A stretch of 64,000 nt of DNA from positions 1-64,000 of the forward strand of contig OMPR01000013.1 in the NCBI GenBank assembly GCA_900313015.1. Direction: 5' to 3'. The DNA is from Rhodobacteraceae bacterium EL53 (GTDB lineage: Bacteria; Pseudomonadota; Alphaproteobacteria; Rhodobacterales; Rhodobacteraceae). The notes below the pieces were generated by a model. That model was not told the origin of the DNA. It made no database searches and saw nothing but the letters and a program-made list of their open reading frames with translations. Of this stretch, positions 51,984-63,733 are shown in pieces (the first letter of the stretch is position 1; each line of letters opens with the position of its first letter). The position numbers and the translations under genes were made by a program.

Positions 51984-52703
51984 TTATTTAAGTCTTTCAC
52001 GAAACGGGCAGACATCTTTTTGGAAGGGAACATATCTGCGTCGGAATGAAGTACCTTCGACCATTTCAGGGAGGCTGATCCGATCCATTCGAAAGTGTCG
52101 AAAATCATCGCGTGCTGGATCCCAGGCAACTAAATACCAAAGGGGGGACAGGATCAGCATGGCCTGAGGTTCGATCTGACGGCTAGTTTGTGCGCCTTTC
52201 GCGTCGCGGTATTGAAACCGCAGGTGGTGCTGTTGCAAGAATGCGGTTTCGTATGCAGGCAGGAGGGCCGGATCAATCGGTCCGAGATCTGAAATGTCCT
52301 GATGTGGTGAGAGTTGCCCAATGTGCAGGCAATCAAGGAAGCGGCGCAGGTCCCGTACTTTGTCTGAGGGCAACGCCTTTTCAATCTTGGCCAGCCCGGC
52401 GTCTGCGAGATCAGAAAAGGGGAGGTTCAGGGCTGCGCGCATGGCGGACACGCTGATCAGAAGGGCAAACACCTCGGCCACGGACAAGCGTGCCGTGGTT
52501 TGGACCGATTGGGGATCAAGATGCAGGCCGCCGCCGCGTCCGCTTTCTGAGTGGATCACAAACCCCTGATCACGTAGAGCGCTGATATCGCGCAGGATTG
52601 TGCGTCTGGATACGCCGGCCTCTTGGGCGAGCTCATCAATTGTGGACGTTCCATTGCGGCGCAGGGTGCGTACGATGGCATCATGACGGAGACGAATATT
52701 CAT
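51984..52703 (-). CDS. HTH-WYL domain transcriptional regulator
   Basis: A 239-residue YafY-type regulator. The N-terminal HTH_11 domain covers about 1-60 (LAQEAGVSRRTILRDISALRDQGF), and the WYL-type ligand domain about 140-225 (LSPLWYLVAWDPARDDFRHFRMDRI). Divergent from the RidA gene, with a clear palindrome between them, so it likely represses it. Confidence 0.9.
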   Translation of the reverse strand: MNIRLRHDAIVRTLRRNGTSTIDELAQEAGVSRRTILRDISALRDQGFVIHSESGRGGGLHLDPQSVQTTARLSVAEVFALLISVSAMRAALNLPFSDLADAGLAKIEKALPSDKVRDLRRFLDCLHIGQLSPHQDISDLGPIDPALLPAYETAFLQQHHLRFQYRDAKGAQTSRQIEPQAMLILSPLWYLVAWDPARDDFRHFRMDRISLPEMVEGTSFRRRYVPFQKDVCPFRERLK

Positions 52704-52723
52704 CTGTTCAGCGTAGCATATAC

Positions 52724-52742
52724 GGTGCCATATTTTGGCACC
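52724..52742. promoter_or_regulatory. Palindromic operator between WYL and RidA genes
   Basis: GGTGCCA-TATTT-TGGCACC, a perfect 7 bp-arm inverted repeat, 48 bp before the RidA start and 21 bp from the WYL start. The location fits an operator for the regulator. Confidence 0.65.
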
Positions 52743-52789
52743 TTTTTAAGTTAAGCGGTCTGTAGCTATCTCAACAAGGAGGCGAGACA

Positions 52790-53185
52790 ATGCAACGTAC
52801 AGCCGTAAACCCATGGGATTGGTCCCAGAAACTTGGCTATAATCAGGCTGAAATCATCGAGGGGGCGACGCGGCAATTGATCTGTGCGGGTCAAACCGCG
52901 GTTGATGGGAAAGGGCTTCCGCAGCATCCCGGTGATATGCGCGCCCAGATCTGCCTTGCCCTTGATAATCTGGAGGCCGTGCTGGCAGGCGCGGACATGA
53001 CACTGCGCAATGTTATCCGGCTTGGGGTCTATGTGACCGATGTGGATGAGGCGCTGAAACACTTTGATGTGCTTGGAATGCGGTTCGGGCCGTTTCAAGC
53101 AGCGCCTCCAATGACTTTGCTGGGTGTGGACCGATTGGCGATTCCCGGGTTGTTGTTCGAAATCGAAGCCACCGCAGCGATGTGA
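52790..53185 (+). CDS. RidA-family enamine/imine deaminase
   Basis: A 131-residue Rid protein. RidA hydrolyses the reactive imines made by PLP enzymes. The text RQLICAGQTAVDGKGLPQHPGDMRAQICLALDNLEAVL fits in short blocks, but the normal catalytic Arg region near the end reads PPMTLLGVDRLAIPG, lacking the usual PARS. It may have other specificity. Regulated by the divergent WYL gene. Confidence 0.85.
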   Translation: MQRTAVNPWDWSQKLGYNQAEIIEGATRQLICAGQTAVDGKGLPQHPGDMRAQICLALDNLEAVLAGADMTLRNVIRLGVYVTDVDEALKHFDVLGMRFGPFQAAPPMTLLGVDRLAIPGLLFEIEATAAM

Positions 53186-56221: not shown

Positions 56222-57028
56222 ATGTCCGGACTATCAATCGAAAGCATCTCAATGCGCTTTGACCTGCCAAATGGTGGATCAGTTCAAGCGTTGAAAGATG
56301 TGTCACTGCACCTGAAAGAAGGTGAGCTGTTGAGCGTGCTGGGGCCTTCGGGCTGCGGGAAAACCACGCTTTTGAATATTTTGGCAGGCTTTTTGGCCCC
56401 GACTGAGGGTCAGATTGTCATGAACGGGCACACGGTTCAGGGGCCGGATGCGGAACGCGGGATGGTGTTCCAGCAAGGCGCCTTGTTCGAGTGGATGAGC
56501 GTGCGTGACAACGTCGGGTTCGGCCCCAAGATGAAAGGGATGCCAAACGCGGAAAAAGCCGAGATCGTCGACCATCTTTTAGATGTTGTCGGTTTGCAGG
56601 ATTTTAAGGAAAAGGCGGTTTATGAGCTGTCGGGCGGGATGCAGCAGCGTGTTGCGCTGGCGCGGTGTCTGGCCAATGACCCGGACGTCATCTTGATGGA
56701 TGAGCCGTTGGGGGCCTTGGACGCGCTGACCCGTGAAAAGATGCAATCTCTGGTGCTGAAGCTGTGGAAAGAGACGGGTAAGACCATCATCTTGATCACA
56801 CACTCGGTCGAAGAAGCATTGTTGTTGGGCGAACGCCTGATCGTTATGGCGCCCCGTCCGGGCCGCATTCACAAAGAATACCGACTGCCGTTCGCGGACA
56901 TGGGCGTTGGCGCAGATCTGCGTGAGGTCAAGAAACACCCTGATTATGCTCCGACCCGTGAAGAGATCCTGAACATGATCTGGAACATGGAAGAAGAGAT
57001 CATGGGCCGCACGGAGGACGCATCATGA
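56222..57028 (+). CDS. tauB: Taurine ABC transporter ATP-binding protein
   Basis: A 268-residue ABC ATPase. Walker A is GPSGCGKTT (about 42-50), signature LSGGMQQRVALARCLAN, Walker B VILMDEPLGALD and switch His in ITHSVEEA. Its stop overlaps tauC by 4 nt. AAGGGG precedes the start. Confidence 0.95.
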   Translation: MSGLSIESISMRFDLPNGGSVQALKDVSLHLKEGELLSVLGPSGCGKTTLLNILAGFLAPTEGQIVMNGHTVQGPDAERGMVFQQGALFEWMSVRDNVGFGPKMKGMPNAEKAEIVDHLLDVVGLQDFKEKAVYELSGGMQQRVALARCLANDPDVILMDEPLGALDALTREKMQSLVLKLWKETGKTIILITHSVEEALLLGERLIVMAPRPGRIHKEYRLPFADMGVGADLREVKKHPDYAPTREEILNMIWNMEEEIMGRTEDAS

Positions 57029-58302
57029 CCAGCCTGATCCCATTTTTCGTATATATCGCGATCTTTGTCGGCGCCTTTTATACAGTGCGATTCATCGCGC
57101 AAAAGACGGCGGTTCAGGACTATACATCGCTCAAGACGGTGACGTTCGGCGACGAAAGTGCGGTTCAGTCGAACCGGGCGGCGTCAATCGTTTCGATTGT
57201 CACTATTTTTGTTCTGTGGGGGGCCTTTACCGGGTCCAGCCTGATGCCAAGCTTCATGCACGCGCCGGGGCCGTTTATCGGAGACACCACGTTCACCTAC
57301 ACTGCGCAGGCGCCGGATGGCACCAAGGATGACGCCACGGTGCACGTGCGTGTGCATCCCGCAGATGAGAAACCGGATGCGATCGAGGCCGCGTCGGGTG
57401 ACGGATTTGCCAAAGACGATGCGCTGAACATGATAGCGTGGCGCAGTAAGTTGATCCCTGTCGACAAGAACGACGAAATCACCAAAAAAGACGGCGCTAA
57501 AATCGTTGCGATTGACGGTCAGCCGATTGCGCCGGGTGATTCTGTTTCGGTTGGCGATGGCAAGGTGACTTTGTCCGACAAAGGGACGCCAAACTTTGTG
57601 CCAAACAAAGGCTGGCAGATGGAGCCGATCTGGTTGCCGTCTCCCGAAGCGGTGGTCAAGCGGACCATTGAAATTGCCAATCAAGGTTATCAGGGGTCGA
57701 CCCTGTGGGAACACCTTGGTTACTCGCTTATGCGTGTGATTGTCGGGTTCTTCTTTGGTGCGCTGGTGGGTATTCCACTGGGCTATGCCATGGGCTTGAG
57801 CGACTGGGCACGCGGCTGGTTTGATCCGATCGTGGAATTCATGCGTCCTGTACCGCCACTTGCTTTGATCCCGCTGGTGATCATTTGGGCCGGTATCGGT
57901 GAAAGCGGCAAGATCATCCTGCTGTTCCTTGCGGCGCTCTGGATTATGGCGATTGCCTCTCGGTCAGGGGTGTCGGGTGTCAAGATCTCGAAGGTGCACG
58001 CGGCCTATTCATTGGGCGCGAACAAGCGCCAGATCATGCGGTATGTCATTGTGCCGAACTCACTGCCCGAGATCTTTACCGGTGCACGTGTTGCGATGGG
58101 CGTCTGTTGGGGCACGGTTGTGGCTGCGGAACTTGTGGCGGCTGAAAAGGGCGCTGGTAAGATGATCGTAACGGCCTCCAAGTTCCAGAACACGGATATC
58201 GTGATCATGGGGATCATCCTGATTGGGATCATTGGCTTTAGCATCGACATGCTGATGCGCTGGGCTGAAAAATTCCTGGTGCCATGGAAAGGCAAAGGTT
58301 GA
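57025..58302 (+). CDS. tauC: Taurine ABC transporter permease with an N-terminal insert domain
   Basis: A 425-residue permease, well above the about 275 residues usual for TauC. Helix 1 is about 4-22, a linker follows, helix 2 about 54-71. Residues about 76-205 form a polar, beta-rich stretch (TFTYTAQAPDGTKDDATVHVRV) between helix 2 and the LPSPEAVVK block that begins the normal core. The core has the EAA loop SLPEIFTGARVAMGVCWG. The extra domain probably faces the periplasm near the binding protein. Confidence 0.9.
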   Translation: MTSLIPFFVYIAIFVGAFYTVRFIAQKTAVQDYTSLKTVTFGDESAVQSNRAASIVSIVTIFVLWGAFTGSSLMPSFMHAPGPFIGDTTFTYTAQAPDGTKDDATVHVRVHPADEKPDAIEAASGDGFAKDDALNMIAWRSKLIPVDKNDEITKKDGAKIVAIDGQPIAPGDSVSVGDGKVTLSDKGTPNFVPNKGWQMEPIWLPSPEAVVKRTIEIANQGYQGSTLWEHLGYSLMRVIVGFFFGALVGIPLGYAMGLSDWARGWFDPIVEFMRPVPPLALIPLVIIWAGIGESGKIILLFLAALWIMAIASRSGVSGVKISKVHAAYSLGANKRQIMRYVIVPNSLPEIFTGARVAMGVCWGTVVAAELVAAEKGAGKMIVTASKFQNTDIVIMGIILIGIIGFSIDMLMRWAEKFLVPWKGKG

Positions 58303-60396: not shown

Positions 60397-62025
60397 ATGA
60401 CAACGCCGGGAATCTACGAACAGCATCTCGACCAGACACGAGCCAATCATACCGCGCTGTCACCGCTCAGCTATCTTGAACGGGCGGCTGCGGTTTATCC
60501 CGACTACCCTTCGGTGGTGTATGGCGCGCGCCGGTATACATGGGGTGAAACCTATGCGCGATGCCGTCAGTTAGCGAGTGCGCTGGCGGGACATGGTGTG
60601 GGGCGGGGCGATACCGTGTCGATCATCGCGGCCAATATTCCCGAACTCTACGAGGCCCACTTTGGGATTCCGATGCTTGGTGCGGTGCTGAACGCGATAA
60701 ACACCCGGCTGGATGCGCCGATCATTGCCTTTATTCTGCAGCATGCCGAAGCCAAGGTTTTGTTGGTAGATCCTGAGTTTTCCAGCGTTGTGCGCGAGGC
60801 GCTGACACAGGTGGATCGCCCGGACTTGTTGGTGATCGACATTGTCGATCCCAGTTTTGATGGCGGGGATCCGGTGGGGTCGCTGACTTATGACGCCCTG
60901 CTAGAGGCGGGGGATCCTGACTATCATTGGTCACTGCCCGTTGATGAGTGGGATGCGATTACACTGAACTATACCTCGGGGACGACAGGGAATCCCAAGG
61001 GGGTGGTGTATCACCATCGGGGGGCGGCCTTGAATGCGACCTCGAATATCCTGACATGGGGGATGCCGCAGCATTCCACCTATCTGTGGACCTTGCCGAT
61101 GTTCCATTGCAACGGCTGGTGTTTCCCTTGGGCCATGGCTGCGAATGCGGGGGTGTCGGTGTGTTTGCGTGCGGTACGGGCCGAACCGATTTATCAGGCG
61201 TTTCGCGACGAGAAGGTCACCCATTTTTGTGGCGCCCCGATTGTGTTGAACATGTTGGCCAATGCGCCTGATAAGCTGAAGGATTTTGATCACGAAATCA
61301 AGGTCATGACCGCGGGTGCACCGCCTCCGGCTGCGGTGATCGAGAATATGGAATCTATGGGGATCGAGGTCACGCATGTCTATGGGTTGACCGAAACTTA
61401 TGGTCCCTCGGTTGTCTGTGCGTGGAAGGATGAGTGGAACGACAAAGGGCCCGAAGATCGAGCGGCGCTGAAGGTGCGCCAGGGTGTGAAATACGTGGCC
61501 CTGTCCGGTCTGATGGTCGCCGATCCTGAAACGTTAGAGCCTGTTCCGTCTGATGGCGAAACCATGGGCGAGATTTTCATGCAGGGCAATATCGTGATGA
61601 AGGGGTATCTGAAAAATCCCGAAGCCACGGATAAGGCGTTTAAGGGCGGATGGTTTGCCAGTGGTGATTTGGGGGTTATGCACCCGGATGGCTATATCGC
61701 GCTCAAGGATCGATCCAAGGATATCATCATTTCGGGGGGTGAGAATATCTCGTCTGTTGAGATCGAAGATGTCCTGTACAAGCACCCCTCCGTGATGGAG
61801 GCGGCGGTTGTAGCGCGCCCGGATGACAAATGGGGCGAAACACCTTGTGCCTTTGTCGAACTAAAGCCGGGCAAAGACGCGACCGAGGCAGAGATGATTG
61901 CGTTTTGCCGCGATCACATGGCCCATTTCAAGGCACCCAGAACGGTTGTGTTTGGCAGCCTCCCCAAGACATCGACCGGCAAGATCCAGAAGTTTGTTCT
62001 GCGCGATCAGGCACGCGCACTTTAA
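60397..62025 (+). CDS. AMP-dependent acyl-CoA synthetase (ANL family)
   Basis: A 542-residue acyl-CoA ligase. The P-loop motif is YTSGTTGNPKG (192-202), the A5 motif YGLTETYGP, the A8 hinge GDLGVMHPDGYIALKDRSKD and the C-terminal catalytic Lys in PKTSTGKIQKF. It activates a carboxylic acid to its AMP ester and then to the CoA thioester. Similar proteins act on medium-chain or methylthiopropionate-type acids in Roseobacters; the substrate is not predictable here. Confidence 0.92.
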   Translation: MTTPGIYEQHLDQTRANHTALSPLSYLERAAAVYPDYPSVVYGARRYTWGETYARCRQLASALAGHGVGRGDTVSIIAANIPELYEAHFGIPMLGAVLNAINTRLDAPIIAFILQHAEAKVLLVDPEFSSVVREALTQVDRPDLLVIDIVDPSFDGGDPVGSLTYDALLEAGDPDYHWSLPVDEWDAITLNYTSGTTGNPKGVVYHHRGAALNATSNILTWGMPQHSTYLWTLPMFHCNGWCFPWAMAANAGVSVCLRAVRAEPIYQAFRDEKVTHFCGAPIVLNMLANAPDKLKDFDHEIKVMTAGAPPPAAVIENMESMGIEVTHVYGLTETYGPSVVCAWKDEWNDKGPEDRAALKVRQGVKYVALSGLMVADPETLEPVPSDGETMGEIFMQGNIVMKGYLKNPEATDKAFKGGWFASGDLGVMHPDGYIALKDRSKDIIISGGENISSVEIEDVLYKHPSVMEAAVVARPDDKWGETPCAFVELKPGKDATEAEMIAFCRDHMAHFKAPRTVVFGSLPKTSTGKIQKFVLRDQARAL

Positions 62026-62069: not shown

Positions 62070-63362
62070 TTATGGGGACACACGATCCAGGACGGCGATG
62101 ACCTCGATCTTGATCACCAGACCTTTGCGTTCCAGGTGGGGGACGGGGATGCCTGTCGTCGCAGGACCGGGCGCGGTATAGGAGTTTGAGCGCACCAGCA
62201 GGTTTTCATGCAAGGACTCGGCCGACGCGTTCCCTTGGTAAAAGGTTGTGACCTTGACCACGTCATCCAGCGTTGCATCGTATTGGGCAAGGATTTGCGC
62301 AACGTTGGCCATCGCGGTGCGGGTCTGTGCCACCATATCATCGGGTGTTAAAACTTTGGATGTTTCGCTGCGAGCCACCTGACCGCCAATATGGATTACA
62401 TCGCCGGTGCAGGTGCCATGGGCATAGGGCATGGATTGCGACCACGTCCAATGGCCATCCGGGCTGGTATGGCGCGCGGGTTCTGACCCTAATATGGCGG
62501 TGGCTGCGAGTTTGGTTGCTTGACCGGGCGCTGGGCTTTGGGCCAATGGTAGGTCGGTCACCACAGGGCTGTTGCGTGCAAAGCGGTCGGCGCGCAGGGC
62601 GGCGGCCGTTGCCCAGTCCTTGGTTGTTTCATCGCCGGTGGTGAAGGTCGTCAGTTTCACCACATCATCAAGTCCAGCGCCGGAGAGTGCGAGAACCTGT
62701 TCCAGCCGATCCATCGTAAGCTGAGTTTGGGCGGCAGGATCGTTGGGATGGGCCACGGTGCCATCTGAATTGCGCGCTGAGATATCGCTGGTAAAGATCA
62801 TATCTCCAGCTTGAACCAGATGCGAAAACGCGGCTGGCAGCGGGGGCAGGTCGGGTAGGGTGTGGCACTGTCTTTCGACGACGTCCCCGTTGGAGGATCG
62901 CACGGCGACGCCTTCGATTTCGGTTAGCATGTCGGGATAGCAGAGCTCAGGCATCGGGATCATATTGATCACCGGGCGGGTCGTGGGGCCGATGATCTGG
63001 GCCAGCAGATCCAACAGAAAGGCCTCGTCTTGCGCATCCCCAACGAAATAGACCACCAGACGCACAAGATCGTTGAAATCAACGCCGAGATCATCGAACA
63101 GCCGCTCCATATAGAACATGGAATTTCGGCATTGGGTTTCGAGATCCCCGATGTTGCGCACGGTGCCCTTTGGATCAAGATCCACCTGACCGCCGGTGAA
63201 GATCAGGTTGCCTGCGCGCACGGCATGGTGATGGGTAAGTTTGACGGGCCAATCCCAGTGGTTGTTGGGAAAGCTGTACTGTCTGGCCAAGGCGTGGTCT
63301 CCGATCCTGAAAGGCAGCGTTTGGCGTAGGTTAGGCACAGTATTTTCTGTGTGCCAACGCAA
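62070..63362 (-). CDS. Triple Rid-domain (YjgF/RidA) protein
   Basis: A 430-residue protein made of three tandem Rid domains at about 40-155, 175-290 and 308-427. Each has the repeated strand (LIFTGGQVDLD, MIFTSDISARN, VIHIGGQVARS) and the helix with DLVRLVVYFV, DVVKLTTFTT and DVVKVTTFYQ. Only domain 1 keeps an Arg (TTRPVINM) at the position of the RidA catalytic Arg. The TTG start at 63362 is uncertain; GTG 63338 is possible. It lies beside an acyl-CoA synthetase and a DOPA-dioxygenase-like gene. Confidence 0.8.
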   Translation of the reverse strand: MRWHTENTVPNLRQTLPFRIGDHALARQYSFPNNHWDWPVKLTHHHAVRAGNLIFTGGQVDLDPKGTVRNIGDLETQCRNSMFYMERLFDDLGVDFNDLVRLVVYFVGDAQDEAFLLDLLAQIIGPTTRPVINMIPMPELCYPDMLTEIEGVAVRSSNGDVVERQCHTLPDLPPLPAAFSHLVQAGDMIFTSDISARNSDGTVAHPNDPAAQTQLTMDRLEQVLALSGAGLDDVVKLTTFTTGDETTKDWATAAALRADRFARNSPVVTDLPLAQSPAPGQATKLAATAILGSEPARHTSPDGHWTWSQSMPYAHGTCTGDVIHIGGQVARSETSKVLTPDDMVAQTRTAMANVAQILAQYDATLDDVVKVTTFYQGNASAESLHENLLVRSNSYTAPGPATTGIPVPHLERKGLVIKIEVIAVLDRVSP

Positions 63363-63397: not shown

Positions 63398-63733
63398 TTA
63401 GGCGTCGTTGAAAATGGACAGCTCAAGTTCTAACAGCTCACCCATCCATAGCGCGCGATCCCGATGATCTTGCAGGTGTTCGCCGGTGTCGGGATGGGTA
63501 AAGATGGTAAGCCCCTGACGGTTCATCATCAGCCATGGGATCACTTGGTCAAAGACCTCGGGGGCGAAACCCAACTGGCAGCTCCACCTTGGATGGGGAC
63601 CGACATTGCGTTCGTGGACGCGCCCCATTGTGACATCGAACAGACGCGCGGACTCGGCGCAAACTATACGGGCGGTTTCAACGGTTTCGGCATTAAAATA
63701 AACATGGGCGTGATAGCCGCGGATCTCGGGCAT
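63398..63733 (-). CDS. DOPA 4,5-dioxygenase family protein
   Basis: A 111-residue small protein. The family HxHVYF motif is at residues 8-13 (YHAHVYF), with a second His region GPHPRWSCQLGF (residues 45-56) and FTHPDTG near the end. In plants the related enzyme opens DOPA; in bacteria the role is unknown. The stop is 35 bp downstream of the triple-Rid start; same strand. Confidence 0.88.
   Translation of the reverse strand: MPEIRGYHAHVYFNAETVETARIVCAESARLFDVTMGRVHERNVGPHPRWSCQLGFAPEVFDQVIPWLMMNRQGLTIFTHPDTGEHLQDHRDRALWMGELLELELSIFNDA

Follow-up and report, generated by a model that had tools for sequence, protein, structure and literature searches.

The 64,000-nucleotide stretch of Rhodobacteraceae bacterium EL53 DNA analysed here (the window; contig OMPR01000013.1) encodes a protein in which three Rid domains follow one another in a single chain, none of them with the arginine on which RidA-type catalysis depends. 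The domains differ from one another at cleft positions, and the same differences recur across an arginine-free family of such triple-Rids in Alphaproteobacteria. The reading that we favour, with somewhat more confidence than doubt, is a one-chain and probably pseudo-trimeric Rid protein with unequal clefts that would not work as a RidA-type imine hydrolase.

Three Rid domains in one chain

The gene and its domains, whose extents come from a home-made domain HMM, lie as follows.

62070..63362, minus strand: triple-Rid protein, 430 aa, TTG start, PF01042 in three stretches
62898..63263, minus strand: Rid domain 1 (D1, residues 34-155), from the domain HMM, a structure model and fold matches
62493..62843, minus strand: Rid domain 2 (D2, residues 174-290), from the domain HMM
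62088..62462, minus strand: Rid domain 3 (D3, residues 301-425), from the domain HMM

A later start is possible at a GTG (63336-63338, codon 9). PF01042 matches the open reading frame in three stretches with E 8.5e-43 and 145.6 bits against a gathering cut-off of 27.3. TIGR00004 also finds three stretches, with a whole-protein score (95.1) below its cut-off of 106.25. The three PF01042 stretches and the domain HMM bear out the first-pass annotation in its view that one chain holds three Rid domains. A structure model of D1, built from eight alignment rows, has the Rid fold (pLDDT 86, pTM 0.81). Its PDB matches include RutC (3v4d, Z 16.9), AmnE (6izh, Z 16.5), YabJ (Z 16.0) and RidA and TdcF (Z 15-16), and the 50 PDB matches listed, those from Foldseek included, all belong to the Rid family, judged by title or fold class. 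No chain of more than 165 residues is among the PDB matches listed for sequence comparisons. The Rid fold is thus assigned to D1 by the predicted model and to D2 and D3 by profile match.

The residues at the positions discussed below are, for D1, H44 (Tyr17 position), R101 (interface Lys), I132 (Arg105), E148 (Glu120) and E150 (Glu122). The corresponding residues are F179, K236, V268, K284 and A286 in D2, and Y313, K370, T402, K418 and E420 in D3.

The triple-Rid family

Relatives occur in 4/295 genomes of the window's taxonomic family, its own included (the other three are 61%, 36% and 35% identical), and in 18/385 genomes of its class, again with its own. A phylum-wide draw of 398 genomes at E 1e-30 gave the window's own genome as the sole match. 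All five genomes in the order of G407 carry triple-Rids, with 24 matches that each extend across nearly the whole profile; G407, G509, G598, G673 and G1023 of that order have an expanded set of four or five triple-Rid genes apiece. Plasmid records name Sinorhizobium, Bradyrhizobium, Rhizobium and Mesorhizobium, and the named carriers are all Alphaproteobacteria. In the phylum of the Clostridia genome G1024 there are matches in 39/299 genomes, those listed being about one domain long. Scans of viral contigs with A2, L007, D3 and L066 found no relative, and a genome-contig scan returned one single-domain Rid. Of the four triple-Rids with a name in their plasmid records, three bear the annotation 'RidA family protein' and one is a 'hypothetical protein'. 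The former label implies an imine-hydrolase function, and the missing arginine speaks against it.

The comparisons below rest on 52 non-identical triple-Rids, that is, 61 open reading frames with exactly three stretches minus nine identical ones; two frames with two stretches were excluded. The main type comprises the 40 proteins outside nine locus ids of three divergent lineages. The domain tree described below placed 12 of the main type together with L030 and L031, which are labelled 'far' in it yet group with the main type. The assignment of the rest, L042 and L103 among them, was made without the tree, and L021, L022 and L023 are counted as divergent and are absent from it.

The position of the catalytic arginine

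The RidA arginine (105 in TdcF) binds the carboxylate of the substrate, and its change to alanine nearly abolishes activity; it is kept in the subfamilies Rid1-3 and absent from Rid4-7, and an arginine-less Rid7 tested inactive (as given in the portion of PMC4433059 used here). Two codons of D1 matter for this position.

62976..62978, minus strand: codon of R129, the only arginine near the D1 site
62967..62969, minus strand: codon of I132, at the Arg105 position of D1

I132 lies opposite the catalytic arginine in all five listed alignments of D1 with PDB chains (PH0854, TdcF and three of YabJ), where R129 falls three residues earlier, opposite the K of K-P-A-R in YabJ and PH0854 and a Y in TdcF. 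A phmmer comparison of the whole chain with PH0854 puts I132 at the arginine position, and both a MAFFT alignment with L007, the sole row there that has the arginine, and the HMM alignment do the same. The residue distances in the columns based on L007 (15, 17 and 30) fit those of Arabidopsis RidA (15 and 17 from R165 to E180 and E182, 29 from K136 to R165; the part of PMC4960622 used here). The Arg105 position is therefore occupied by I132, V268 and T402, and none of the three domains has the arginine. The first-pass annotation had credited one domain with it, presumably through R129, a placement off by three residues in every alignment. Complete sites in all three domains, the outcome it had set against its own reading, are the opposite of what is found, the key residue being absent from all three.

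R129 is nevertheless a genuine arginine near the site, and its position in D1 of the main type holds Arg in 8/40 and Lys in 2/40. If it were catalytic, the protein would be an asymmetric RidA-type imine deaminase with one of three clefts active. We find this hardly credible: besides the offset of three residues, R129 lies outside the strand of the D1 model (model residues 105-110, equal to 131-136) that bears the Arg105 position, and 30/40 main-type proteins have neither Arg nor Lys there. On the PH0854, MAFFT and PDB alignments, with I132 at the arginine site, R129 is rejected as the catalytic residue.

The same absence extends through the family. Arginine occupies none of the 153 readable Arg105 positions in the 52 proteins, a figure that is no census of all triple-Rids and is partly a product of the search, because every homologue search began from an arginine-free query. 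The residues found are Ala (34), Ser (31), Ile (25), Thr (19), Val (17), Met (9), Gly (7), Trp (6), Leu (3), Pro (1) and Phe (1), with three further positions gapped; Trp is confined to the divergent lineage L019/L020/L021. Since across the family D1 mostly has Ile/Val at this position, D2 mostly Ala/Gly and D3 mostly Ser/Thr, we infer from the alignments that the window protein would not hydrolyse 2-aminoacrylate or 2-iminopropanoate in the manner of RidA. As all three domains lack an arginine essential to ordinary Rid enzymes, the triple-Rid protein probably does another metabolic job.

Fixed differences between the domains

The domains of the main type differ in a conserved way at the positions of Arg105, Tyr17 and Glu120. 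Position 105 is Ile, Val, Met or Leu in 37 of the 40 D1, Ala or Gly in 35 D2 and Ser or Thr in 30 D3. Position 17 is His in 25/39 readable D1 and Tyr or Phe in 27/29 readable D2 and 39/40 D3. The foremost difference concerns position 120, which is Glu in 26/40 D1 (Gln in 11/40) and 35/40 D3 and is Lys or Arg in 35/40 D2. A basic residue occurs there in 0/40 D1 and 1/40 D3, the single case being the window's own K418. The D2 residue of the window protein is encoded here:

62511..62513, minus strand: codon of K284, the basic residue at the Glu120 position of D2

None of the nine readable D2 of the divergent lineages has Lys or Arg at this position, and the basic residue may reflect a single event in one clade. 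The asymmetry that the first-pass annotation had proposed holds in that the domains differ and the differences are conserved; its basis, the loss of the arginine from two domains, does not, none of the three having one.

In Arabidopsis RidA the glutamate is contributed by the adjacent subunit, at a distance of 3.26 A from the carbonyl of the ligand (PMC4960622, in the portion used here). Because this glutamate reaches the ligand across subunits, the D2 Lys or Arg would be expected to enter the cleft opposite the 105 site of another domain. An imine or enamine deaminase is thereby conceivable in which Arg105 has been replaced and the acidic group of the substrate is held by the basic residue of D2 (K284) or a similar one. 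Its frequency in D2, the short distance in Arabidopsis RidA and the aminotransferases and amino-acid transporters near some triple-Rids speak for such an enzyme. We consider it improbable, given that RidA with Arg105 changed to alanine is nearly inactive and that the arginine-less Rid7 is inactive as well (both from the same portion of PMC4433059). An exchange at position 120 may be of little consequence, because alanine in place of the Glu120 equivalent of Salmonella RidA, like alanine in place of its Tyr17 equivalent, had little effect (PMC4433059, likewise in part).

Contacts between the domains

K136 and E182 are interface residues of Arabidopsis RidA (PMC4960622, in the part used here). 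In the main type the interface Lys position is Lys or Arg in 37, 40 and 29 of 40 proteins (D1, D2 and D3) and the interface Glu position is Glu or Asp in 29, 35 and 28 of 40. The contact is not universal: the basic residue is missing from D3 of L030-like rows, the main source of the D3 exceptions, and D2 of the window protein has A286. In the window protein the contact pairs are R101/E150, K236/A286 and K370/E420, with the charge kept in five of the six residues. The divergent lineages have a basic residue at the Lys position in only 2, 7 and 9 of 12 proteins (D1, D2 and D3). The kept residues favour a trimer-like packing in the main type and make a one-chain pseudo-trimer plausible on the evidence of the alignments; a structure model of the full chain from one sequence is unreliable (pLDDT 31) and lends the packing no support. 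In such a molecule the three Rid domains would close into the usual barrel through the Lys and Glu contacts that RidA trimers use.

Origin of the triplication

A tree was made from 70 domains (21 triple-Rids and seven single Rids; 136 columns), in which 17/67 inner branches are open. D1, D2 and D3 of the main group are on separate branches, with D1 nearer to D3 (94/81, not starred). Outside the main group, domains cluster within their lineage: those of L017/L018/L024 with 99/96, those of L019/L020 with 100/98 and those of L025 and its neighbour with 99/97. A single triplication with a fixed domain order for all triple-Rids is rejected by the test of an all-D2 clade (p-AU 1.0e-6), and a clade uniting the main D1 with the D1 of L017/L018/L024 is rejected too (p-AU 9.3e-6); the clades were named post hoc, with the tree already seen, which weakens these tests. 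Perhaps triplication took place more than once, or copies were homogenised within chains. One triplication with later homogenisation is possible, since a clade of all triple-Rid domains against the single Rids is not rejected (p-AU 0.43).

Some loci recall a change of domain order. The tree joins D1 of L017 to D2 of L018 and L024 (99/90, starred), the only part of the pattern that it resolves, and this resembles a cyclic shift; in a closed ring a shift of this kind between L017 and L018/L024 would be neutral. L022, L023 and L025 each have two adjoining triple-Rid genes on the same strand, and against the A1 profile one member of the pair in L023 and in L025 follows the order D3-D1-D2. The L025 copies group D1 with D1, D2 with D2 and D3 with D3 in the tree, a pattern at odds with a cyclic shift between the two.

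Gene surroundings

The triple-Rid gene has these direct neighbours in the window.

63398..63733, minus strand: PF08883 DOPA-dioxygenase-like protein, 111 aa, 35 bases upstream of the triple-Rid gene
60397..62025, plus strand: PRK08162-type acyl-CoA synthetase, convergent with the triple-Rid gene

The first of these may form a two-gene operon with the triple-Rid gene, and the second lies outside it because it is convergent. The first-pass annotation, which had tied the function of the protein to these two genes, was right that both adjoin it, but the acyl-CoA synthetase does not share its operon. The functional link is weak: of 24 other triple-Rid loci, several of which end at contig edges and some of which come from one genome, none has a relative of the DOPA-dioxygenase-like gene and three have weak matches to the acyl-CoA synthetase. 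A conserved operon with the DOPA-dioxygenase-like gene is rejected on the same count. The aminotransferase to the left of the triple-Rid gene, where a taurine-type ABC transporter and another Rid, of a single domain, are also encoded, has two relatives at these loci. The TauC-like permease (57025-58302, 425 aa) is matched by the TauC model only from residue 199, and its extra N-terminal part has a weak match, below cut-off, to the bacterial Ig-like PF17963 (E 0.0026).

To the right of the window, at 66163-72882 in window numbering on contig C11, lies a homogentisate-type cluster on one strand: hmgA, fumarylacetoacetase, an MBL-fold protein, a PRK08132-type FAD oxidoreductase, a 66-aa protein without a match and a VOC-like protein. 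It is near the triple-Rid gene, 7-8 kb off, with a gap and other genes between and the linkage unproven. A further gene of 179 aa by the cluster looks RibD-like by eye and has no NCBIfam match at 1e-20.

Catabolic-type neighbours are also found elsewhere, namely Amidohydro_2 proteins (2 loci), an amidase, a tautomerase, a luciferase-like monooxygenase, a class IV aminotransferase, a polysaccharide deacetylase and AAT. An ectoine-hydrolase/Xaa-Pro-type peptidase and Urt/Liv-type ABC transporters are near triple-Rids as well, and the plasmid loci have an annotated aminotransferase and amino-acid ABC transporters. These neighbours fit catabolism of amines, amides or ring/aromatic compounds. Those of L049, L050 and L054 do not fit a catabolic role. 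In L049 (G552:C1) rlmN (36 bases away) and argG (86 bases away) enclose the triple-Rid gene and share its strand, L050 (G628:C166) has rlmN close by together with a relative of the argG-like gene, and in L054 a PRC-barrel protein adjoins. argG may still hint at a role, because Rid genes have been linked to arginine and carbamoyl-phosphate genes (PMC4433059, in the portion used here). Across the triple-Rid loci no conserved neighbour is common enough to name a pathway.

At L056 (G673:C42) a pair of inverted, mutually related genes of about 200 aa stands between two triple-Rid genes, and a relative adjoins the triple-Rid gene of L055. The window also encodes, at 51984-53185, a divergent pair of a WYL/HTH regulator and an arginine-less single Rid with an N-terminal PWDWS motif. 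Five close copies of this Rid (83-86% identity) are on five IMG/VR contigs (L078-L082), and in the three checked by eye (L078, L079, L082) a relative of the regulator is beside it. For the window's regulator phrog_13105 is a full-length match (E 1.8e-80); the Rid of L082 has no PHROG match, and a protein nearby, queried with a hand-typed approximate sequence, matches phrog_6367 (function unknown). The pair may travel as phage cargo.

Possible modes of action

The loss of all three Arg105 positions and the divergence of D2 would also suit a catalytically dead protein that uses the Rid fold for binding or regulation, as a ligand sensor or scaffold, and so would neighbours that include housekeeping genes and conserve no pathway. 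This is possible, if on the doubtful side. Against it, the cleft residues are kept across distant copies, as a working pocket would lead one to expect, with His or Tyr/Phe at position 17, Glu120 in most D1 and D3, and W305 and W307 invariant in 23 proteins.

Under the favoured reading of a pseudo-trimer with unequal clefts, the fusion of three copies would have left each cleft free to diverge. For the main family this would mean that Lys or Arg, and not Glu, reaches the cleft into which the position-120 residue of D2 points, presumably to bind an anionic group of the substrate. The protein's likely task would be to hydrolyse, tautomerise or protectively bind a reactive intermediate formed in nitrogen or aromatic metabolism. 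A bolder form of this reading, which we hold to be rather doubtful, has arginine-free Rids triplicated several times independently in Alphaproteobacteria to give single-chain hetero-trimers. Their largest lineage would have shifted the positive charge of position 105 to position 120 of the middle domain, which faces it, turning one of the three clefts into a new active site with a chemistry unseen in homotrimeric Rids. A single chain with three separately mutable clefts makes it possible to ask which cleft works, a question that a homotrimer cannot answer.

Comparison with known Rid systems

The 3x-RidA proteins (e.g., EF_0115 of Enterococcus faecalis; Niehaus et al. 2015) have three tandem Rid domains in one chain, like the window protein, and are presumed to be linked trimers (PMC4433059, in the portion used here). 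They are described as a subset of RidA, whereas the window's family is arginine-free with fixed domain differences. The open-access literature searched held no relevant account of 3x-RidA beyond this source and no description of arginine-free triple-Rids with fixed domain differences.

Rid4-Rid7 resemble the triple-Rid family in having lost the catalytic arginine and mostly kept the Glu and Tyr/Phe, and their function is said to 'remain mysterious'; the same portion of PMC4433059 makes no mention of a triple-domain form among them. Rid4 and Rid7 carry Trp at the arginine position, which among triple-Rids is seen in L019/L020/L021 only; the window protein has Ile, Val and Thr instead. Rid5 and Rid6 are marked by a variable arginine position and a kept Glu; the arginine position of the triple-Rids is variable, and the Glu120 position of the window protein is Glu in D1 only.

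RidA, TdcF and YabJ share the fold of D1 and the interface Lys and Glu but are single-domain homotrimers with Arg105 or its equivalent. AmnE, a 2-aminomuconate deaminase of aromatic catabolism and the analogue suggested by the first-pass annotation, also has the fold of D1, but it is a homohexamer that keeps Arg117, a conserved cleft residue (PMC6742747, in the part used here), which the triple-Rid lacks. Presumed linked Rid trimers (3x-RidA, 2015) and arginine-less Rid subfamilies were thus already known; what is new, to judge from the literature searched, is an arginine-free triple-Rid with fixed asymmetry, perhaps the product of repeated triplication.
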